Source: an uncultured Aequorivita sp. (GTDB taxonomy: Bacteria > Bacteroidota > Bacteroidia > Flavobacteriales > Flavobacteriaceae). From it: DNA of 64,000 bases. The position numbers and the translations under genes are program-made. The DNA is taken from contig CAKZLK010000016.1 of NCBI GenBank assembly GCA_937125455.1, forward strand, positions 124,001 to 188,000. Reading direction: 5' to 3'. The notes beneath the pieces were generated by a model, which did not search any database, was not told where the DNA came from, and saw nothing but the letters and a program-made list of their open reading frames with translations. Shown in pieces: positions 20,108 to 35,958 of the stretch (positions within the stretch are counted from its first letter, which is position 1; each line of letters begins with the position of its first letter).

Positions 20108-22522
20108 ATGCAAACAAACCCTAAGACCAACGGAGAGATTTCTTTTGACGATTTTAAAGAAACCGTACTTAACGATTATAAAATAGCAGTAACCAGTCGT
20201 GAATGCAGTTTATTGGGCCGTCGCGAAGTACTTACCGGAAAAGCTAAGTTCGGAATTTTCGGAGACGGAAAAGAAGTACCTCAACTCGCTTGGGCAAAAG
20301 CATTCCAAAACGGCGATTGGCGCAGTGGATATTACAGAGATCAAACCTTTATGATGGCTATTGGGAAACTTACCATTGAACAGTTTTTCGCAGGTCTTTA
20401 TGCACACACCGATATTAATGCCGATCCAATGAGTGCGGGAAGACAGATGGGTGGCCACTTTGCAACCCATAGTCTAAACGAAGACGGCAGCTGGAAAAAC
20501 CTTACTGCACAAAAGAACAGCAGTGCCGATATTTCACCTACAGCTGGACAAATGCCGCGCCTTTTGGGCCTGGCACAAGCTTCAAAAATTTTCAGAAACG
20601 TAAAAGGGATTGAAAATAAAACCAACTTCTCCATAAACGGAAACGAAGTTGCTTGGGGAACTATAGGAAATGCCAGCACCAGCGAGGGGCTATTCTGGGA
20701 AACCATAAACGCCGCAGGCGTATTACAAGTACCAATGGTAATGAGTGTTTGGGATGATGAATACGGAATTTCAGTACACGCAAAATACCAGACTACTAAA
20801 GAAAATATTTCAGAAGTACTTAAAGGCTTTCAGCGTAACGAAGAGGAAGACGGTTATGAAATTATCCGTGTTAAAGGATGGGATTACCCTGAACTTATTG
20901 AAGTCTATAATCGCGCTTCAAAAATAGCAAGGGAAGAACACGTTCCCGTTTTGATACATGTGCAACAGTTGACTCAACCACAAGGACATAGCACCAGTGG
21001 ATCGCACGAAAGATACAAAAGCAAGGAGCGCTTGGAGTGGGAGGGTAAATACGACTGCAATGTAAAAATGCGTGAATGGATGATCAATAGCGATATTGCT
21101 TCCGAAGAAACACTTGTTGAAATTGAAAAAGATATAAAGAAAAAAGTGCGTGACGGAAAAAAAGCAGCTTGGGATGCTTTCGTTTCACCTCAGAAAAAAG
21201 AACAAGAAGAAGCAGTTTTATTACTTGGAAATTTATCCGAAACCAGCGCTAACAAAAATTTTATTGAAAAGATAAAGAATGAACTTGCAGCGGAAAAAGA
21301 ACCGTTGCGAAGAGACATTCTGGCTTCCACTAGAAAAGCATTACGTTATGTAGTGAGCGAAGACTCTTCTGAAAAGAAACAACTACAAGACTGGGTTAAT
21401 AATTATTTCGAAATAATTCAACCCAAATACAGCGCACACCTTTACAGCGAAGCAAAGAAAAATGCCAAAACCGTAAAAGAGGTCCTTCCCTCCTATGCCA
21501 ACAATGCGGAAGAAGTGGATGGCCGAGTAATTATCCGTGACAACTTTGACACTATCTTCAACAAATATCCAGAAGTTTTAATCTTTGGAGAAGACAGCGG
21601 TGAGATTGGTGACGTAAACCAAGGGCTGGAAGGAATGCAAGAAAAGTACGGGAAACTAAGGGTTGCTGATGTCGGAATTCGCGAGGCAACCATTCTCGGA
21701 CAAGGTATTGGGATGGCTATGCGTGGTTTGCGCCCCATTGCAGAGATTCAGTATTTAGACTATATATTGTATTGTCTTCAAATAATGAGCGATGATCTAG
21801 TGACCGTCCGTTATCGAACCAACGGCACTCAAAAAGCACCATTGATCGTTAGAACTCGTGGCCACAGACTAGAAGGTATTTGGCACAGTGGTTCGCAAAT
21901 GGGGGGATTGATTCATCTGCTTCGTGGAATGTATATTCTCGTGCCACGAAATATGACAAAAGCTGCAGGTTTTTACAATACATTATTGGAAACTGACGAA
22001 CCCGCATTGGTAATTGAATGCTTAAATGGCTATCGTTTAAAAGAAAAAATGCCGAATAATCTTGGAGACTTTAAAACCCCGATTGGCGTAGTTGAAACTG
22101 TAAAAGAAGGAACAGACATTACTCTGGTTTCTTACGGAAGTACATTACGCGTAATTGAAGAAGCTGCCAAAGAACTACAACAAGCTGGTATTGATGCCGA
22201 AATTATTGATGTTCAATCGTTACTTCCTTTAGATATTAACCACGATTTGGTAAAGAGTGTTGCTAAGACAAATCGCCTACTTGTTATTGATGAAGACGTT
22301 CCTGGCGGAGCTTCAGCTTATATACTTCAAAATATCTTGGATGTGCAAGGTGGTTACAGATATTTGGATAGCAAACCACAAACGCTCACTGCTAAAGACC
22401 ATCGACCTGCTTATGGAACAGATGGTGATTACTTTAGCAAGCCTTCAGCAGAGGATGTTTATGAAAAGGTTTACGAAATTATGCACGAGGCAAATCCAAA
22501 AGACTTTCCAAAACTGCGATAA
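20108..22522 (+). CDS. 2-oxoacid dehydrogenase E1, alpha and beta subunits fused (branched-chain type)
   Basis: This 804-residue thiamine-diphosphate enzyme would decarboxylate a 2-oxoacid and pass the acyl group to a lipoylated E2. Residues 1-380 correspond to the alpha subunit (YYRDQTFMMAIGKLT, then the cofactor region GNASTSEGLFWETINAAGV...VWDDEYGIS). Residues 460-804 are the beta subunit (FGEDSGEIGDVNQGLEGMQEKYG, EIQYLDYILYCLQIMSDD, IIDVQSLLPLD). In place of the classical GDG...NN thiamine motif it reads G-N-A...D-D. The single-chain form resembles the branched-chain type common in Bacteroidota. This would feed iso- and anteiso acyl-CoA synthesis, but pyruvate cannot be excluded. No E2 or E3 gene is adjacent. 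Confidence 0.88.
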   Translation: MQTNPKTNGEISFDDFKETVLNDYKIAVTSRECSLLGRREVLTGKAKFGIFGDGKEVPQLAWAKAFQNGDWRSGYYRDQTFMMAIGKLTIEQFFAGLYAHTDINADPMSAGRQMGGHFATHSLNEDGSWKNLTAQKNSSADISPTAGQMPRLLGLAQASKIFRNVKGIENKTNFSINGNEVAWGTIGNASTSEGLFWETINAAGVLQVPMVMSVWDDEYGISVHAKYQTTKENISEVLKGFQRNEEEDGYEIIRVKGWDYPELIEVYNRASKIAREEHVPVLIHVQQLTQPQGHSTSGSHERYKSKERLEWEGKYDCNVKMREWMINSDIASEETLVEIEKDIKKKVRDGKKAAWDAFVSPQKKEQEEAVLLLGNLSETSANKNFIEKIKNELAAEKEPLRRDILASTRKALRYVVSEDSSEKKQLQDWVNNYFEIIQPKYSAHLYSEAKKNAKTVKEVLPSYANNAEEVDGRVIIRDNFDTIFNKYPEVLIFGEDSGEIGDVNQGLEGMQEKYGKLRVADVGIREATILGQGIGMAMRGLRPIAEIQYLDYILYCLQIMSDDLVTVRYRTNGTQKAPLIVRTRGHRLEGIWHSGSQMGGLIHLLRGMYILVPRNMTKAAGFYNTLLETDEPALVIECLNGYRLKEKMPNNLGDFKTPIGVVETVKEGTDITLVSYGSTLRVIEEAAKELQQAGIDAEIIDVQSLLPLDINHDLVKSVAKTNRLLVIDEDVPGGASAYILQNILDVQGGYRYLDSKPQTLTAKDHRPAYGTDGDYFSKPSAEDVYEKVYEIMHEANPKDFPKLR

Positions 22523-22631
22523 TAATAAAACAACTCATTGGTTCCTATTGTAAAGCCGCTATGCTGAATTAATCGCATTTAATCGAATATTTAATTCCTT
22601 AAGCTATTAATTACATTTTATTCAATAAGCA

Positions 22632-22664
22632 TTTGGAAGTATTGAATTAATTACTTTAAATTAG
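22632..22664 (+). promoter_or_regulatory. Promoter of the asnB leader transcript
   Basis: TTTG at 22632-22635 and TAAATTAG at 22657-22664 (seven of eight to TAnnTTTG) are separated by 21 bases. Transcription would start near 22668, about 25 bases before the leader ORF. Confidence 0.5.
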
Positions 22665-22692
22665 CAAAACATTTATTAAAACAAACAAGTTT

Positions 22693-22740
22693 ATGTCTTT
22701 CTTCAGCTTTAACAACAATAATAATAACGTGCTGCCGTAA
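22693..22740 (+). CDS. asnB leader peptide with six consecutive Asn codons
   Basis: The ORF encodes MSFFSFNNNNNNVLP and a TAA stop at 22738. Codons 7-12 (22711-22728) are AAC AAC AAT AAT AAT AAC. It lies between a promoter and an intrinsic terminator directly upstream of asparagine synthetase. This is how ribosome-mediated attenuators (trp, his, thr, ilv type) are built, with the control codons matching the product amino acid. The stop is two bases before an RNA segment (22742-22751) that can pair either upstream or downstream. The peptide is expected to act only through its translation. Confidence 0.8.
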   Translation: MSFFSFNNNNNNVLP

Positions 22741-22741
22741 C

Positions 22742-22796
22742 AAAAACTTGTCGCGATATATGGCCTGTCAAGTTTTTCTTGACAGGCTTTTTTTTT
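22742..22796 (+). terminator. asnB attenuator: antiterminator and terminator hairpins
   Basis: The terminator is a perfect ten-base stem, 22763-22772 with 22778-22787 (GCCTGTCAAG / CTTGACAGGC), a five-T loop and nine Ts at 22788-22796. The competing antiterminator is 22742-22750 (AAAAACTTG) with 22769-22777 (CAAGTTTTT), which destroys the left arm and loop of the terminator. A third pairing, 22685-22692 (ACAAGTTT) with 22744-22751 (AAACTTGT), would sequester the antiterminator strand. A ribosome stalled on the Asn codons leaves 22742-22751 free (read-through); one reaching the stop codon covers it (termination). Confidence 0.82.
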
Positions 22797-22829
22797 GAAC
22801 TAAAACTAACTATTTAAATTATAGAAATT

Positions 22830-24500
22830 ATGTGTGGAATTGTATGTGCATTTAAACTTAAAGAGCCTGCGGAAGCGTTAAGACTTCAGGTATTATCAAT
22901 GGCAAAGTGTATTCGTCATCGCGGACCGGACTGGAGCGGAATTTTCAGTAATGATAACGCCATTATGGCGCACGAAAGGCTTGCTATTGTTGATCCCACA
23001 TCTGGTAAGCAGCCACTTTTTAGCAGTGACGGCAATTTAGTTCTTGCAGCCAATGGCGAAATTTATAACCATATGGCGCTTCGGAAACAATTTGAAGGAA
23101 AATATACCTTTCTAACTAAAAGTGACTGCGAGGTAATACTGCCTTTATATAAAGAAAAAGGCGCTGCCTTTCTTGACGAAATGAACGGCATATTCGGTTT
23201 TGCAATCTATGACATCGAAAACGACAATTACTTTATAGCCCGAGACCATATGGGCATTATACCACTATATATGGGTTGGGATCAAAACGGAACTTTTTAT
23301 GTCGCATCCGAGTTGAAAGCTTTGGAAGGCATTTGCACAAAAATTGAACTCTTCCCTCCTGGTCATTATCTGGACAGTCGTGAGGGCGAACTGAAACGTT
23401 GGTACACCCGTGATTGGATGGACTATAAAAATGTAAAGGACAACGCAACTGAAATCGCAGAACTACGCAACGCTTTAGAAGCCGCAGTACACCACCAATT
23501 GATGAGCGACGTGCCTTATGGAGTTTTATTATCAGGCGGATTGGACAGTAGTATTACTTCAGCCATTGCAAAAAAATATGCCGAAAAACGTATTGAGAGT
23601 GAAGACACCGAAAGCGCTTGGTATCCACAACTTCATAGTTTTGCGATTGGCTTAGAAGGTAGTCCAGATCTTGCTGCGGCGCAAAAAGTAGCAAATCACT
23701 TAAAGACAGTCCACCACGAAATAAAATTTACGATACAGGAAGGTATAGATGCAATTCGCGATGTAATTTATCATCTGGAAACTTATGACATTACCACCAT
23801 CCGTGCCAGTACACCTATGTACCTAATGGCACGCGCTATTAAAGCTATGGGTATCAAAATGGTGCTTAGTGGCGAGGGCTCTGATGAAATATTTGGGGGC
23901 TATCTCTATTTCCACAAAGCGCCTAATGCCGAAGAGCTCCATAAAGAAACCGTTCGGAAGTTGGACAAACTGCATATGTATGATTGTCTTCGCGCCAATA
24001 AATCGCTCGCAAGTTGGGGGATTGAAGGTCGCGTTCCCTTCTTGGACAAGGAGTTTATGGATGTAGCCATGAGTATTAACCCACAGGATAAAATGATTAA
24101 CGGCGAACGTATGGAAAAATGGGTACTACGCAAAGCCTTTGAAGACATGCTCCCAGAAAGCGTTGCATGGCGCCAAAAAGAACAGTTTAGCGATGGCGTA
24201 GGCTATAGTTGGATTGACACTTTGAAGGAAATGGTAAACGAGCAAGTATCTGACGAACAACTCGAAAATGCCAAATACAAATTTCCCATACAAACGCCTA
24301 CTACCAAGGAAGAGTTTTATTACCGAAGTATTTTTGCTGAACATTTCCCCAGTGATACCGCGGCACTCAGCGTACCCTCTGTACCCTCAGTGGCGTGTAG
24401 CAGTCCGATTGCATTGGAATGGGATGCCAGTTTTAAAAATATGAACGACCCCAGTGGACGAGCTGTTAAGAATGTACACGCTGATGCATATGGAGAGTAA
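22830..24500 (+). CDS. asnB: Asparagine synthase B, glutamine-hydrolysing
   Basis: This 556-residue cytosolic enzyme makes asparagine from aspartate, glutamine and ATP. The mature protein starts at the nucleophile Cys2 (MCGIVCAF). The glutaminase domain covers residues 2-200, with RHRGPDWSG and ANGEIYNH. The synthetase domain begins at about 210 with the ATP pyrophosphate loop LLSGGLDSS (about 235) and contains SGEGSDEIFGGYLYFHKAP and the WGIEGRVPFLDKEFMD segment. Length and order match E. coli AsnB. Expression is predicted to be governed by the attenuator immediately upstream (22693-22796), the only asnB-specific regulatory element visible. Confidence 0.96.
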   Translation: MCGIVCAFKLKEPAEALRLQVLSMAKCIRHRGPDWSGIFSNDNAIMAHERLAIVDPTSGKQPLFSSDGNLVLAANGEIYNHMALRKQFEGKYTFLTKSDCEVILPLYKEKGAAFLDEMNGIFGFAIYDIENDNYFIARDHMGIIPLYMGWDQNGTFYVASELKALEGICTKIELFPPGHYLDSREGELKRWYTRDWMDYKNVKDNATEIAELRNALEAAVHHQLMSDVPYGVLLSGGLDSSITSAIAKKYAEKRIESEDTESAWYPQLHSFAIGLEGSPDLAAAQKVANHLKTVHHEIKFTIQEGIDAIRDVIYHLETYDITTIRASTPMYLMARAIKAMGIKMVLSGEGSDEIFGGYLYFHKAPNAEELHKETVRKLDKLHMYDCLRANKSLASWGIEGRVPFLDKEFMDVAMSINPQDKMINGERMEKWVLRKAFEDMLPESVAWRQKEQFSDGVGYSWIDTLKEMVNEQVSDEQLENAKYKFPIQTPTTKEEFYYRSIFAEHFPSDTAALSVPSVPSVACSSPIALEWDASFKNMNDPSGRAVKNVHADAYGE

Positions 24501-30862: not shown

Positions 30863-32695
30863 TTATATGTTAAATTTTAAGAAGATTTCTATATTTCGTG
30901 ACGGCATTGGCCTATACGCTACGTTTTCATAATATATATTAAAAACATTATTGAGCCTACTACCAAAAGAGAGATTTGTATTACCCGACAATCTATATTC
31001 CGCTCCAAGATTAAAAATGGTATACGCATTCACGTACTCGCTATTGTCCGTTGTAGTATATGCTTCTCCATTAAACAAACCCTGGGCATAAAAAGAAATT
31101 TGTTTAAAATAATATTGCAGCGTTCCACCTGCTTTGTGAAAAGGCACATAAATAAGTTGCTTTTCTTTTTCCAAATCTTCCGCTTTGGTATACGAATAGT
31201 TTGCATAAAAATCTAAAGTCTGCCGATTACTGAACTTTAGGGAATAATCCAAATTTATCTCAATGCCGTAATTCTTAGTCTTATTTATATTTAATGGTTG
31301 CCAAAGGCCGCCGCTATTAGGCACCCATTTAATTAAATCTTTAGAAGAAATGTAGTAAGCAGCTACATCTGCCTTCAAATTTCCGTAGTAAAATTCCTGG
31401 CCCAATTCAACTTGGTATGATGTCTCTGGCTGTATATTTAAATTGCCTCCAGCGTACCAATACAGATCATTAAATGTGGGAATACGATAATTCCTAGAAC
31501 CATTTAAACGAAGGACATAATTTTCTGATACCTTATATTTCGCATCCGCAGAAAAAAGAAAGGGATTGTCAAAATCATTCAAAAATTCTTTTCTCAGATT
31601 GATTCCGTAATTAAACTTTTCTGAAATTTTATGGTTTATTAACCCCACAGCCGCCAATGTTTTTCGAGAATTACGCCCCACATTATCGCCTTCAGCATCA
31701 ATAAAGGTATATTCAACCTTACCATTTATACGAAGTTTTTTAATAAGTAAAACTTCTGTTTGAAGTGATCCAATAAAAGTATTCGCTTTACCTCCATTAT
31801 TGAACGGTTTTTCACTGTCTGGAAAATAGCTGTACTTTTCAAAAAGATGCGCTATACCGGCTTTTGTATTAAAAACTCCTATTTTTTTTTGTAATTGCCA
31901 AAGATTTCGGGTTGCAATGTCTTTATAGGCGTCTTTCCCTAAGGTGTTCAAACTACCTGAGAAATTACGATCGTTGTAGATGTATTCAGAATTCCACGTG
32001 GCCACACCATTTTTCAGTTTTCTTGCTTCATTCACTTTTGCGGCAAAACGCAAAAAACTACCGTGATCGTTAGTTTTATTCTTTCCAACGTATTCATAAT
32101 CGTTTTCAGAACTAATAAAATCCACACCAACATTTAAATAATGATCTCCCCATATTTGCGTTGTACTGGCATTTCCGGCCAGAGTTGAAAAACTTCCGTA
32201 GCGAATCCCTACCTTAGTTATATCGTTTTTTTTAAAAGAAAAAGTATTGTTTAAATGAATACTTCCGCCAACGGCACCACTTCCGTATTGAACACCTCCT
32301 CCTCCACTTCTAATATCAATTTCATTATAATTTAACGGTGAAATTGTATTAAAATCCATTTGTCCAGTAAATACAGAATTAATGTTTATACCATTCCAGA
32401 TAACCGCAGTTTGTGCAGCATTTGTACCTCGGAACGAAGGTGAAGAAACCATTCCAAAGCCATTCTCTTTAAAATAAATTGAAGTATTATAACGAAGTGT
32501 TTCCGTTAATGAAGCTGCATTTCTTTCAACAACCGAATCTGTTAGTTTTTCAAGTTTGAAACCCTTTGAAAAATGGACGAGTTTCCCATCAGAAAGTATT
32601 ACTTCGGGCAACTGCTGAATACTATCCAATTGTGCATATGCAGAAAAAGTGCACAGGAAAAGTACCAAAATAATATGGAAAATGTTTTGCTTCAT
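30863..32695 (-). CDS. TonB-dependent receptor, BtuB-like vitamin B12 transporter
   Basis: This 610-residue outer-membrane receptor has a signal peptide (to SAYAQ) followed by a plug domain: NAASLTETLRYNTSIYFKENGFGMVSSPSFRGTNAAQTAVIWNGININS, then IDIRSGGGGVQYGSGAVGGSIHL. The 22-strand barrel ends in a C-terminal aromatic-rich strand (NIEIFLKFNI). There is no N-terminal carboxypeptidase-like extension, so this is a BtuB-sized receptor rather than a SusC type. A cobalamin riboswitch precedes it, a BtuG-like lipoprotein follows it and BtuFCD genes are divergent from it. Together these strongly indicate corrinoid uptake. Confidence 0.9.
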   Translation of the reverse strand: MKQNIFHIILVLFLCTFSAYAQLDSIQQLPEVILSDGKLVHFSKGFKLEKLTDSVVERNAASLTETLRYNTSIYFKENGFGMVSSPSFRGTNAAQTAVIWNGININSVFTGQMDFNTISPLNYNEIDIRSGGGGVQYGSGAVGGSIHLNNTFSFKKNDITKVGIRYGSFSTLAGNASTTQIWGDHYLNVGVDFISSENDYEYVGKNKTNDHGSFLRFAAKVNEARKLKNGVATWNSEYIYNDRNFSGSLNTLGKDAYKDIATRNLWQLQKKIGVFNTKAGIAHLFEKYSYFPDSEKPFNNGGKANTFIGSLQTEVLLIKKLRINGKVEYTFIDAEGDNVGRNSRKTLAAVGLINHKISEKFNYGINLRKEFLNDFDNPFLFSADAKYKVSENYVLRLNGSRNYRIPTFNDLYWYAGGNLNIQPETSYQVELGQEFYYGNLKADVAAYYISSKDLIKWVPNSGGLWQPLNINKTKNYGIEINLDYSLKFSNRQTLDFYANYSYTKAEDLEKEKQLIYVPFHKAGGTLQYYFKQISFYAQGLFNGEAYTTTDNSEYVNAYTIFNLGAEYRLSGNTNLSFGSRLNNVFNIYYENVAYRPMPSRNIEIFLKFNI

Positions 32696-32737
32696 AATTC
32701 AACCTTTATCCCGAAAGTTTGATGATTTTATGTTACG

Positions 32738-32892
32738 AATTCGGCAGGTCTCCTGGCTTGTCTTTTGTGCCACCTTCCCATCCCGATAGCTATCAAGACA
32801 GTGGTTTTTGAAGCATGCACGTCCGAAAATGACTTCGAAACGACTTACAGTTGCGGGAACAGCTTCGGTTTTTAACCGAATTCCCTTTTAAG
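32738..32892 (-). promoter_or_regulatory. Cobalamin riboswitch
   Basis: Read on the minus strand, the leader contains AGGGAATTCGGTT (from 32890), then CCCGCAACTGTAAGTCG (from 32857), CCACTG (from 32804), GGGAAGGTGGCAC and finally AAGCCAGGAGACCTGCC (ending at 32744), the B12-box core of the Cbl riboswitch. The order and spacing match this RNA class. It lies 43 bases ahead of the BtuB-like receptor gene and would shut off the receptor and lipoprotein when adenosyl- or methylcobalamin is plentiful. Confidence 0.93.
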
Positions 32893-32934
32893 AGCTTTTT
32901 TCCGTAATAGAAATCAGCTCACCAAAATTCCTTA

Positions 32935-32967
32935 CAAAAATAGACTTTAAATACTAGTTAACCCAAA
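32935..32967 (-). promoter_or_regulatory. Promoter of the riboswitch-btuB transcript
   Basis: On the minus strand TTTG (32967-32964) and TATTTTTG (32942-32935) are spaced 21 bases; transcription would start about 40 bases before the riboswitch aptamer. Confidence 0.65.
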
Positions 32968-32976
32968 CAAAACTAT

Positions 32977-32984
32977 TATTTTTG
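32977..32984 (+). promoter_or_regulatory. Putative -7 box of the btuFCD operon
   Basis: TATTTTTG on the plus strand ends four bases before the btuF ATG, which predicts a leaderless or nearly leaderless mRNA. No TTG is well spaced upstream, so this is tentative. Confidence 0.35.
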
Positions 32985-32987
32985 AGG

Positions 32988-34133
32988 ATGCAAAAAATTG
33001 TATTCCTATTAACTCTTCTCTGTGTTTTCGGTTCCTGCAAAAACAATGATACCAGTTCAAAAACTGAAAAAAACGACAGCAATAAAAAAGGCTTTTTAGA
33101 AATTAAATACGCAAAAGGTTTTGAAGTTAAAGCTTTTGAAGGATACAAAACCATCACTTTAAAAAATCCTTGGCCAGGGACTGACAAAACATATACGTAC
33201 GCATTGGTTGAAAAAGGAATTTCGCTTCCAAATCCTAAAACTTATGATGCTGTAGTTGAAATTCCTGTAAAAAGAATTGTTGCAACTTCTACAACCCACA
33301 TTCCTTCCTTAGAAATGTTAAATGAAACTGAAGCGTTGGTAGGGTTTCCTAGCCTAGATTATATTTCTTCAAAAAAAACACGTGAAAAAATTGATGCAGG
33401 AAAAATAATAGAGCTTGGCAAAAACGAAGATATAAATACCGAAATACTTATAGATCTAGCGCCCGATGTAGTAATTGGCTTTGCCGTAGATGGAAATAAT
33501 TCAACTTTTGCCACAATACAAAAAACGGGGATTCCTGTACTTTATAATTCGGACTGGACAGAAAACTCGCCTTTGGGAAAAGCGGAATGGATCAAATTTT
33601 TTGGCGTCCTCTTTAACAAAGAGAAGGAAGCTGATAGCATTTTTAAAACCATTGAAACTGAATATCTTTCTGTAAAAAAAGTTGCCTCCAAAGCTAAAAG
33701 CACGCCAACAGTTATTAGTGGAGCCATGTATAAAGATGTTTGGTATATGCCCCAGGGCGACAGTTGGGGGGCACAATTTATTGCTGATGCCAATGGCAAT
33801 TATCTTTGGAAAAATTCAAAAGGAACCGGTAGTTTGTATTTAAATTTGGAATCCGTTCTCGATAAAGGCCACAATGCTGAATTTTGGATTGGTCCCGGCC
33901 AATTTACAAGTTTGTCCGATATGGAAAACGCCAGTCATGCATATACAGAATTTATGGCTTTTAAAGCGGGAAATGTGTATTCATATAGCATGAAAAAAGG
34001 TGCCGACGGCGGAGTAATCTACTATGAATTAGCTCCCAATCGCCCAGATTTAGTTTTAAAAGACCTTATAAAAATTTTACATCCAGAACTGTTGCCAAAG
34101 CATGAGCTTTACTTTTTTGATAAATTGAAATAA
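32988..34133 (+). CDS. btuF: ABC transporter substrate-binding lipoprotein for cobalamin (BtuF-like)
   Basis: The protein has 381 residues from the ATG at 32988; a TTG two codons earlier is less likely. It has a lipobox (LLCVFGSC, Cys15), followed by a periplasmic-binding domain of the helical-backbone metal-receptor type (PF01497). The N-lobe contains PVKRIVATSTTHIPSLEMLNETEALVGFPSLDYISS and ILIDLAPDVVIGFAVDG; a long connecting helix and the C-lobe follow. This family binds corrinoids or ferric siderophores. The next two genes overlap it as permease and ATPase, and the divergent operon is B12-riboswitch controlled, so cobalamin is the probable ligand. Confidence 0.85.
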   Translation: MQKIVFLLTLLCVFGSCKNNDTSSKTEKNDSNKKGFLEIKYAKGFEVKAFEGYKTITLKNPWPGTDKTYTYALVEKGISLPNPKTYDAVVEIPVKRIVATSTTHIPSLEMLNETEALVGFPSLDYISSKKTREKIDAGKIIELGKNEDINTEILIDLAPDVVIGFAVDGNNSTFATIQKTGIPVLYNSDWTENSPLGKAEWIKFFGVLFNKEKEADSIFKTIETEYLSVKKVASKAKSTPTVISGAMYKDVWYMPQGDSWGAQFIADANGNYLWKNSKGTGSLYLNLESVLDKGHNAEFWIGPGQFTSLSDMENASHAYTEFMAFKAGNVYSYSMKKGADGGVIYYELAPNRPDLVLKDLIKILHPELLPKHELYFFDKLK

Positions 34134-35164
34134 TGCAAACCAAACAAACATATCGGGTTCATCATGCTGTACTTTTTATTGTGCTTGTTGCAGCTTTTTT
34201 GACAAACTTGAGCATGGGTTCTGTTTCCATTCCGTTAAAGGATATTTTTAGTGCTTTTATAGGAAACGGTGCATCAAAAGAAACTTGGCAATATATTTTG
34301 ATAGACTATAGATTACCCAAAGCAATAACCGCAATGCTTGCTGGTGGCGGATTAGCAGTCTCAGGGATGTTGATGCAAACCCTCTTTAGAAATCCACTAG
34401 CGGGACCTTTTGTTTTGGGCCTAAGCAGTGGTGCAAGTCTAGGTGTGGCCATTTTAATTTTGGGAGCAAGTGCTTTTGGAGGTTTTTTTGGAATAATTTT
34501 ATTGAGTCAATGGAGTTTGGTAATAGCTTCAGCATTGGGGAGTTTTTTAGTGCTATTGGCTGTTTTGGCAGTAACATATCGAATAAAGGACACGATGGCA
34601 ATCTTGATTATCGGATTAATGTTTGGTAGCGTTACGACTGCTGTGGTATCGGTTTTGTCATATTTTAGCAATGCGGAACAACTACAACAATACATTTTTT
34701 GGTCCTTCGGAAGCTTAGGAAACCAATCTTGGCAAGGCGTTTTAATTTTAAGTATGTGCATTTTGGTTGGTTTAGCTTTAAGTATTTTTAGCAGCAAATC
34801 ATTAAACGCACTACTATTAGGTGAAAATTATGCTAAAAGCATGGGGCTCCATATAAAAAGGACCACTTTTATAATAATTCTAGCCACCAGTATTCTTGCA
34901 GGAAGCATTACAGCTTTTGTGGGGCCAATCGCTTTTATAGGTTTGGCGGTGCCACATTTGGTCCGACAGTTTTATAAAACTTCCGACCATATGGTTTTGC
35001 TACCCGCTGTATTGCTTTGTGGCTGTTTGTTGATGCTAATCTGTGACACTGTCGCGCAATTACCTTTTAGTGAATTTACATTGCCCATAAATGCAATTAC
35101 TTCGTTAATTGGCGCTCCTGTTGTAATTTGGCTTTTAGTGCGTAAACGAAAACTTTTCTTTTAA
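34133..35164 (+). CDS. btuC: FecCD-family ABC transporter permease (BtuC-like)
   Basis: This 343-residue inner-membrane permease has about ten helices. Family motifs are DYRLPKAITAMLAGGGLAVSGMLMQTLFRNPLAGPFVLGLSSGASLG in the N-terminal half and GSITAFVGPIAFIGLAVPHLVRQFYKTSDH in the C-terminal half; the latter is the coupling-helix region that contacts the ATPase. Its start codon overlaps the stop of btuF (TAATG) and its stop overlaps the start of btuD in the same way. It translocates the ligand delivered by the BtuF-like protein. Confidence 0.92.
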   Translation: MQTKQTYRVHHAVLFIVLVAAFLTNLSMGSVSIPLKDIFSAFIGNGASKETWQYILIDYRLPKAITAMLAGGGLAVSGMLMQTLFRNPLAGPFVLGLSSGASLGVAILILGASAFGGFFGIILLSQWSLVIASALGSFLVLLAVLAVTYRIKDTMAILIIGLMFGSVTTAVVSVLSYFSNAEQLQQYIFWSFGSLGNQSWQGVLILSMCILVGLALSIFSSKSLNALLLGENYAKSMGLHIKRTTFIIILATSILAGSITAFVGPIAFIGLAVPHLVRQFYKTSDHMVLLPAVLLCGCLLMLICDTVAQLPFSEFTLPINAITSLIGAPVVIWLLVRKRKLFF

Positions 35165-35958
35165 TGGTTATAGAAGAAAAAAATATAATTTTGAAAGCAA
35201 GGAATCTTGCGATTGGTTATTCGGACAAGAAAATTAATTCAACCATTGCCAAAGAAATTAATTTTGCCATTTTAAAAGGAGAGCTGGTTGGGCTTGTGGG
35301 CGCAAACGGAATAGGAAAATCAACGCTTTTGCGAACGTTGACAGGGATGCAAAATGCTTTGAGTGGTGATATTTTTTTAAATGAAAAAAAGCTAAAAGAA
35401 TATTCTTCGTTTCAGCTCGCAACACATTTGAGTGTGGTTTTAACAGAAGCACCAGCATCTAAAAACCTTTCGGTTGTGGAAATGGTTTCCTTAGGAAGAC
35501 AGCCCTATACCAATTGGCTTGGCACCCTTTCCAAAACAGACAAAACAGCAATAGATTTTGCTATGGAAGCCACTGAAACAGAGATTCTTGCGAATCGTAA
35601 ATGTTTTGAACTAAGTGATGGCCAGATGCAGCGTGTTGCCATAGCAAGAGCTTTGGCTCAGGATACGCCAATTATAATTCTGGACGAACCTACAACCCAC
35701 TTGGATATTTACCACCGTGCCTATATTTTAAAATTACTGAAGAAACTAGCTTCGGAAACGCAAAAAACTATTCTTTTTTCAACACACGAAATAGATTTGG
35801 CTATTCAGCTTACCGACAAGATGTTGGTAATGGCACAAAACGAAATTTATTTTGATGATCCCTGTAAATTGATCGAAGCTGGAAGATTTGACACACTTTT
35901 TCCCAAAGAAACTATCGATTTTGACGGAAGTACTGGTCGGTTTACCATTCGGAAATAA
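35164..35958 (+). CDS. btuD: ABC transporter ATP-binding protein (BtuD-like)
   Basis: This 264-residue ATPase of the iron-chelate/cobalamin importer family has a Walker A at about residues 43-51 (GANGIGKST), an ABC signature LSDGQMQRVAIARAL, a Walker B IIILDEPTTHLD and a switch His in FSTHE. The LSDGQ form is usual for this FecE/BtuD subfamily. It is the third gene of an operon with one-base overlaps throughout and powers the importer. Confidence 0.92.
   Translation: MVIEEKNIILKARNLAIGYSDKKINSTIAKEINFAILKGELVGLVGANGIGKSTLLRTLTGMQNALSGDIFLNEKKLKEYSSFQLATHLSVVLTEAPASKNLSVVEMVSLGRQPYTNWLGTLSKTDKTAIDFAMEATETEILANRKCFELSDGQMQRVAIARALAQDTPIIILDEPTTHLDIYHRAYILKLLKKLASETQKTILFSTHEIDLAIQLTDKMLVMAQNEIYFDDPCKLIEAGRFDTLFPKETIDFDGSTGRFTIRK

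Follow-up and report, generated by a model that had tools for sequence, protein, structure and literature searches.

Why should a short open reading frame (ORF) with six asparagine codons stand about 100 nt upstream of asnB, a gene for asparagine synthesis? The locus is found in a 64,000-nucleotide stretch of DNA from an uncultured Aequorivita sp. of the Flavobacteriaceae (contig CAKZLK010000016.1, positions 124,001 to 188,000; this whole stretch is termed the window), and the (AAY)6 run occurs only once on both strands of the 3.73-Mb window genome (63 contigs). An initial annotation, made from the letters of the window, had proposed an asparagine attenuator here. Judged from the sequence, we consider it very probable that the element is a ribosome-mediated transcription attenuator sensing charged tRNA-Asn. 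As far as we found, this is a known mechanism with an apparently new amino acid specificity, asparagine, in a group of bacteria where it has barely been described, and it appears to exist in a second, independent design.

Parts of the asnB leader and their pairings

The regulated gene, asnB, occupies positions 22830-24500 on the plus strand, where all parts of the locus are located. The identity given to it in the initial annotation agrees with profile searches: the ORF scored 934 bits against the NCBIfam equivalog PRK09431 (cut-off 499) and 466 bits against TIGR01536, as glutamine-hydrolysing asparagine synthase B. Upstream of it, a base-by-base check of the sequence found all of the named elements in place. 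The leader ORF, MSFFSFNNNNNNVLP followed by a stop, has 15 codons (22693-22740, with ATG at 22693 and TAA at 22738-22740), and the six control Asn codons are located at 22711-22728. This short ORF thus repeatedly encodes the amino acid that the downstream gene serves to make.

The pairings involve strands termed 1 to 4. Strand 1, the protector (ACAAGTTT, 22685-22692), abuts the leader start codon and is a perfect 8-bp complement of 22744-22751 (AAACTTGT). Strand 2, the switch strand and 5' arm of the antiterminator (AAAAACTTG, 22742-22750), is a perfect complement of strand 3, the 3' arm (CAAGTTTTT, 22769-22777), which overlaps the 5' arm and the loop of the terminator. The intrinsic terminator (strands 3:4, 22762-22796) pairs 22763-22772 with 22778-22787, also perfectly, followed by nine T at 22788-22796; its stem is 10 bp, or 11 bp counting G22762-T22788. 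An intrinsic terminator is thus located between leader and gene, and the antiterminator excludes it. Between strands 2 and 3, the core alignment of leaders contains a conserved segment at 22751-22761 (TCGCGATATAT).

The promoter-like pair at 22632-22664 was also present. This Bacteroidota-type promoter candidate consists of TTTG (22632-22635), a 21-nt gap and TAAATTAG (22657-22664), the latter with one mismatch to TAnnTTTG, a box that the main text of one study places at -12 to -5 (PMC9723704). From these promoter-like boxes only, transcription is predicted to start near 22669. A TAnnTTTG box with at most one mismatch was found inside the 60 nt upstream of 32 of the 48 leaders, a count for which no null was computed.

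We infer where transcription starts, that the leader is translated, that the ribosome stalls and how asparagine acts on the outcome; these steps would operate together as follows. RNA polymerase would start near 22669 and a ribosome would translate the 15-codon leader behind it. When Asn-tRNA is scarce, the ribosome would stall on the Asn codons with its leading edge just short of strand 2, leaving strand 2 to pair with strand 3 as antiterminator, and polymerase would read through into asnB. When Asn-tRNA is ample, the ribosome would reach the stop codon and cover strand 2, strands 3 and 4 would form the terminator, and transcription would end. If no ribosome is loaded, strand 1 could sequester strand 2, and the terminator would again be free to form. 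asnB would in this way be induced by asparagine shortage, i.e., by low charged tRNA-Asn.

Folding of the leader RNA was consistent with this scheme. The RNA 22672-22800 folded at -30.9 kcal/mol (z = -4.2; 0 of 200 shuffles were as good), and its minimum free energy (MFE) structure holds both the strand 1 pairing and the terminator. For constrained folds, the RNA was kept single-stranded from -17 to +13 relative to the ribosomal A site. With nascent RNA ending at 22778, approximately nine antiterminator pairs formed whichever of the six Asn codons the ribosome occupied, and none formed with the ribosome at the stop codon. Given this assumed footprint, strand 2 is covered by a ribosome at the stop codon and not by one at the control codons, and the full RNA without a ribosome formed the protector pairing and the terminator. 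The three-strand logic put forward in the initial annotation was in this way reproduced. The window terminator is unremarkable alone, because it was the one site that the scan found in 601 bp, compared to 0.5 expected in shuffles; what is remarkable is the combination of parts and their conservation.

Conservation among relatives and competing explanations

We compared the regions upstream of asnB in a family sample of 149 genomes. An asnB match was found in 108 of these, and upstream regions were taken from 102; the six left out were at a contig edge, truncated, or about 50% identical. Together with 80 named loci this gave 182 regions, 171 of them distinct. An Asn-rich ORF, a stop, the antiterminator strand and a terminator were found upstream of asnB in 28 of the 171, among them loci labelled Aequorivita aurantiaca, uncultured Marixanthomonas, Luteirhabdus pelagi, Thermobacterium salinum, Planktosalinus lacus, Pukyongia and Patiriisocius marinistellae. 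This is the comparison that the initial annotation had called for, and Asn-rich ORFs were found as it expected. The count started from 30 rows retrieved by a loose rule (Asn ORF plus terminator); L066, L075 and L102 were rejected and L182 was reassigned to a second type described below, giving 26, and L037 and L038, in which the Asn codons are interrupted, were added by eye.

In the protein tree the window AsnB groups with that of Aequorivita aurantiaca. The 23 leader-bearing asnB form one side of a single branch in a tree of 103 proteins (support 89, quick method). When six more leader-bearing asnB were added, including two with deviating spacing, 29 of 109 fell on one side, corresponding to one change (support 82). 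A tree with more distant asnB placed 21 leader-bearing sequences in one nested group with no leaderless member.

The gene upstream of asnB in the window, encoding a 2-oxo acid dehydrogenase E1 (20108-22522, plus strand), is co-directional with it, and the hairpin might simply terminate that gene while the Asn ORF is accidental. E1 indeed precedes asnB in 24 of 25 leader-bearing loci, or 22 of 23 once two copies are set aside, compared to 0 of 85 others, some of which have little upstream sequence; neighbour and leader, with its terminator, thus occur together. However, in 11 of 22 distinct loci E1 ends 798-2407 nt before asnB, whereas the leader begins 118-235 nt before it. Since the leader stays close to asnB when E1 is distant, the hairpin is not simply an E1 terminator. 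This explanation also leaves the Asn runs, the constant spacing from Asn codons to strand 2 and the conserved antiterminator strand unaccounted for, and we regard it as most improbable.

We searched further genomes with a covariance model, R1, built from 27 cores that start at the leader stop codon, leaving the Asn content outside the model. Searches spanning more than 40 genomes used stricter filters, by which weak matches were lost. In 397 family genomes R1 gave 39 matches of at least 55 bits, with the next score at 48.7 bits. All 39 were located directly upstream of asnB, 36 by tblastn and three (G073, G105, and G128) by coordinates, and they span 25 of 237 genera. In 20 of the 39 genomes the core was identical to a training core (including the training rows G073, G105, and G128), in 19 it was not. 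The matched leaders were Asn-rich despite Asn being absent from the model. An order sample of 395 genomes gave two matches past E 1e-7, both previously found. A phylum sample of 395 genomes gave seven past 1e-6, of which only those of the window genome and of G042 were asnB leaders. The latter is a true asnB leader at 45.8 bits, and the gap in R1 scores is thus imperfect. The matches below 49 bits at L221-L234, L237, L238, and L240-L242 had no asnB in the fetched flanks and were taken as ordinary terminators. The window genome has a second place where the post-stop motif is found at three mismatches.

The geometry of the leaders was highly regular. The 48 distinct leaders (L200 and L209, copies of L005 and L003, were omitted) are 11-19 codons long with 3-10 Asn. 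The last Asn codon begins 21 nt upstream of a conserved CTTG in 42 of 48, and in 40 of 48 the Asn run is followed by three codons, with the stop 9 nt from CTTG. In L036 and L219 two codons follow the run and the stop is 12 nt from CTTG, so that the two changes offset each other. The exceptions in spacing were L172 and L220 (27 nt), L042 (23 nt), L212 (20 nt) and L215 (18 nt); for L038 it is 33 nt if only Asn runs of at least two are counted and 21 nt with the single last Asn.

Codon counts are independent of any geometry imposed by the search. The 48 leaders contain 324 Asn codons (234 AAT and 90 AAC) compared to 11 Lys codons in all. This bears on the possibility that the attenuator senses something other than leader translation, as a riboswitch, a T-box or a protein-binding RNA would. 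The conservation of segment 22751-22761 beyond what pairing explains would fit such an element. On the other hand, the reading frame and the encoded Asn are maintained, although the third codon position is variable. A search of 22500-22900 against Rfam gave no match at gathering score, and none of the sub-threshold matches (E 0.039-6.6) was to a T-box or riboswitch. A sensor of this kind seems highly unlikely. The same segment occurs in two main conserved forms (CGCGATATA and ACCCTATAC) though it is just the loop of the antiterminator; that it could be a pause site for RNA polymerase is a guess.

The terminated leader RNA could instead act mainly as a small RNA (sRNA). Such a transcript would be short and would end in a strong terminator, and the four best sub-threshold Rfam matches on the same strand were sRNAs. 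These matches are far below gathering scores, however, and probably reflect the form of the terminator, and neither the alternative pairings nor the position before asnB is explained in this way. A main role as sRNA is thus scarcely credible.

The leader peptide has a C-terminal Pro in 35 leaders and a C-terminal Thr in another 12, i.e., one of the two in 47 of 48, by means of six different codons; in the window this last codon and the stop occupy 22735-22740. It is conceivable, though doubtful, that this residue slows termination and thereby keeps the ribosome on the switch strand. It has also to be considered that the leader might sense ribosomes stalling on AAY codons for another reason, such as wobble modification of tRNA-Asn (e.g., queuosine) or general translation stress, or that termination at the Pro/Thr-stop is what is sensed. 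Both the conserved C-terminus and the use of AAC as well as AAT could be read in this manner. However, the regulated gene makes asparagine, which is the simplest match, two unrelated leaders both use Asn codons, and the C-terminal residue may tune timing and not act as a sensor. Such alternatives are therefore very unlikely compared to sensing of charged tRNA-Asn.

Compensatory changes among relatives, which the initial annotation had proposed as a check, were seen: both terminator and antiterminator covary, so that the parts of the proposed attenuator are conserved and covarying. In the terminator 7 of 11 pairs were changed on both sides, and the covariation score was 0.420, whereas shuffles gave 0.251 and slid versions reached at most 0.185. 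In the antiterminator (27 sequences) 97.9% of cells were paired compared to at most 69.9% in slid versions, with a two-sided change in one pair (A-U in 16, G-C in 7, and G-U in 3). The protector duplex had a mean of -5.7 compared to -2.7 kcal/mol in shuffles over the 48 leaders, 23 of which were individually at 0.05 or better. The evidence for this third pairing is weaker than for the other two.

Attenuation by leader translation is by far the best explanation of the observations, and a number of points weigh against it. The leader was not present in 143 of the 171 distinct asnB upstream regions, i.e., the majority. Spacing from stop to CTTG was part of R1, and the leader parser demanded a CTTG soon after the stop. 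The covariation of the antiterminator depends mainly on one pair, and the protector pairing was not above shuffles in 5 of 48 leaders (L016, L026, L042, L051, and L219). A leader with a run of at least five His codons plus a terminator was not found in the window genome at four of five loci, the fifth overlapping one. The ribosome footprint of -17 to +13 from the A site is a value from other ribosomes. The terminator, at -18.1 compared to -9.1 kcal/mol for the antiterminator, is favoured at equilibrium, and the full-length RNA still folded into the terminator when the last Asn codon was occupied by a ribosome. The decision of the switch would therefore have to be made during transcription, i.e., be kinetic, as in the trp and his attenuators. 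Finally, the initial annotation had held that pairing of 22685-22692 with 22744-22751 makes termination the default when there is no translation. The pairing is present and part of the MFE structure; the default is not clear-cut, as nascent RNA without a ribosome was split between protector and antiterminator (4.5 vs. 3.7 expected pairs). Termination as the default in untranslated RNA is nevertheless likely from the folds.

A second asparagine leader

The region L182 (genome G010) has an Asn leader upstream of asnB in which the downstream sequence is unrelated to that of the window type. In the genus of G010 (loci L274-L295) a close asnB was found in 22 of 23 genomes and leader plus terminator in 21 of these 22; L291 (G1325) has asnB without such a leader and terminator. 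The second-type leader has broadly the form MxxNNNxxxNNNxxx and is followed by a terminator. In 19 of 21 there are four codons between the last Asn and the stop, and the antiterminator strand (AAGTAG or AGGTAG) either overlaps the stop codon or comes after it. Strand 1 is itself part of the leader: AATATCAGA there pairs with TCTGRTATT downstream of the stop.

The protector of the second type had a mean of -7.8 vs. -2.7 kcal/mol, and 16 of 21 were at 0.05 or better. L287 has a matched two-sided change (AACGAGA with TCTCGTT), and L292 has another. In constrained folds of six examples, all six formed an antiterminator-type pairing with the ribosome at the last Asn codon and the terminator with the ribosome at the stop; as full RNA all six formed protector and terminator. 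For L278, nascent RNA without a ribosome favoured the antiterminator. Covariation of the second-type terminator was slight (2 of 12 pairs two-sided), as would be expected for a set from one genus. Its alignment omits L275 and L284, the cores of which are the same as others, and the variant L290.

The spacing of the two types was nearly the same. The antiterminator helix starts most often 17 nt after the last Asn codon in the second type compared to 16 nt in the window type, and it starts at 15-17 nt in 15 of 21 second-type and 35 of 43 parsed window-type leaders (five of 48 were unparsed). A model of the second type, R2, found two genomes of the G010 genus and one 51-bit match in 378 family genomes. 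A single clade of leader-bearing asnB of both types (21 and 9 rows) was rejected with p-AU 2e-6 in a quick tree with long branches present. The simplest reading is that the two leaders are of separate origin; transfer of asnB into the G010 genus may also be involved, because its asnB branches very deep. It is likely, then, that one bacterial family contains at least two sequence-unrelated families of Asn attenuators for asnB, which arose separately and converged on the same spacing, with the antiterminator strand starting 16-17 nt after the last Asn codon and so just past the leading edge of the ribosome.

Two unrelated RNAs that serve the same gene with the same codons at near-equal spacing would constitute a natural experiment in convergence, and the leading-edge footprint of Bacteroidota ribosomes could be estimated from the spacing across dozens of species. 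Attenuation requires translation close behind transcription, and the leaders thereby bear on coupling in Bacteroidota. Translation initiation in this phylum differs from the use of Shine-Dalgarno sequences, according to the main text of PMC9723704.

Asn-rich ORFs were also seen elsewhere. L262 (G1208), from another family of the class, has a MKTQTHNNNRFFALASR leader about 160 nt upstream of asnB, followed by a strong terminator. This is possibly a third asparagine attenuator, present in a single genome. Relatives lend it no support, as two of seven genomes in its family have a close asnB and the other one is leaderless. L252, of the same family, has an Asn ORF upstream of a broken asnB frame with no terminator nearby, and L253 and L266, which like L262 are outside the Flavobacteriaceae, have an Asn-rich ORF upstream of asnB and no terminator. 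The class-wide search counted close asnB only (27 of 247 genomes), and absence elsewhere is poorly sampled.

Relation to known systems and other features of the window

Leader attenuators of the Escherichia coli type are trpL, hisL, leuL, thrL, ilvL, and pheL. Like these, the window element has a short ORF containing consecutive codons for the regulated amino acid, mutually exclusive pairings 1:2, 2:3, and 3:4, and a terminator with a T-tract upstream of a biosynthetic gene. It differs from them in its asparagine specificity, in its Bacteroidota promoter form, and in strand 1 of the window type being located before the start codon. Polycysteine upstream ORFs of mycobacteria likewise repeat the codon of an amino acid that is not among the classical ones, and differ in that they concern Cys, occur in Actinobacteria and have other RNA parts. 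In Firmicutes, asn genes have T-box leaders. Asparagine genes are there likewise under control by tRNA charging, but the RNA binds tRNA directly and no leader peptide is involved.

Leader-peptide attenuation as such had been suggested earlier for amino acid operons of a flavobacterium. In Flavobacterium psychrophilum, of the same family of bacteria, the main text of PMC9723704 gives strong clues for it upstream of operons for amino acid biosynthesis, and describes structured 5' elements that precede hisG and pheA. That main text mentions neither asnB nor asparagine and thus contains no asparagine element; supplements were outside the search. In bacilli a His leader peptide precedes hisS/hisZ, and its repeated emergence was considered by the authors in the part of PMC2965389 consulted. 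This is likewise leader-peptide attenuation outside Proteobacteria and Actinobacteria, and it differs in its specificity for His, its occurrence in Firmicutes and its aminoacyl-tRNA synthetase genes; the terms asparagin, Flavobacter, and Bacteroid are absent from the part consulted. A Bacillus subtilis paper mentions attenuation for trp only, in the portion available (PMC2743287). The initial annotation had known of no characterised asparagine attenuator, and this agrees with our search of the open-access PMC literature, where no paper linked asnB or asparagine to leader-peptide attenuation (subscription journals and supplements were outside the search). Asparagine would accordingly join the amino acids sensed by leader-peptide attenuation, a mode of control previously hinted at and not described in this phylum.

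Elsewhere in the window, a cobalamin riboswitch was found on the minus strand at 32726-32942 (93 bits). The minus-strand ORF behind it (30863-32695) resembles, by eye, a TonB-dependent receptor. On the opposite strand, 32982-35958 encodes a substrate-binding protein, a permease and an ATPase, which by eye resemble a system for uptake of cobalamin or iron-siderophore.

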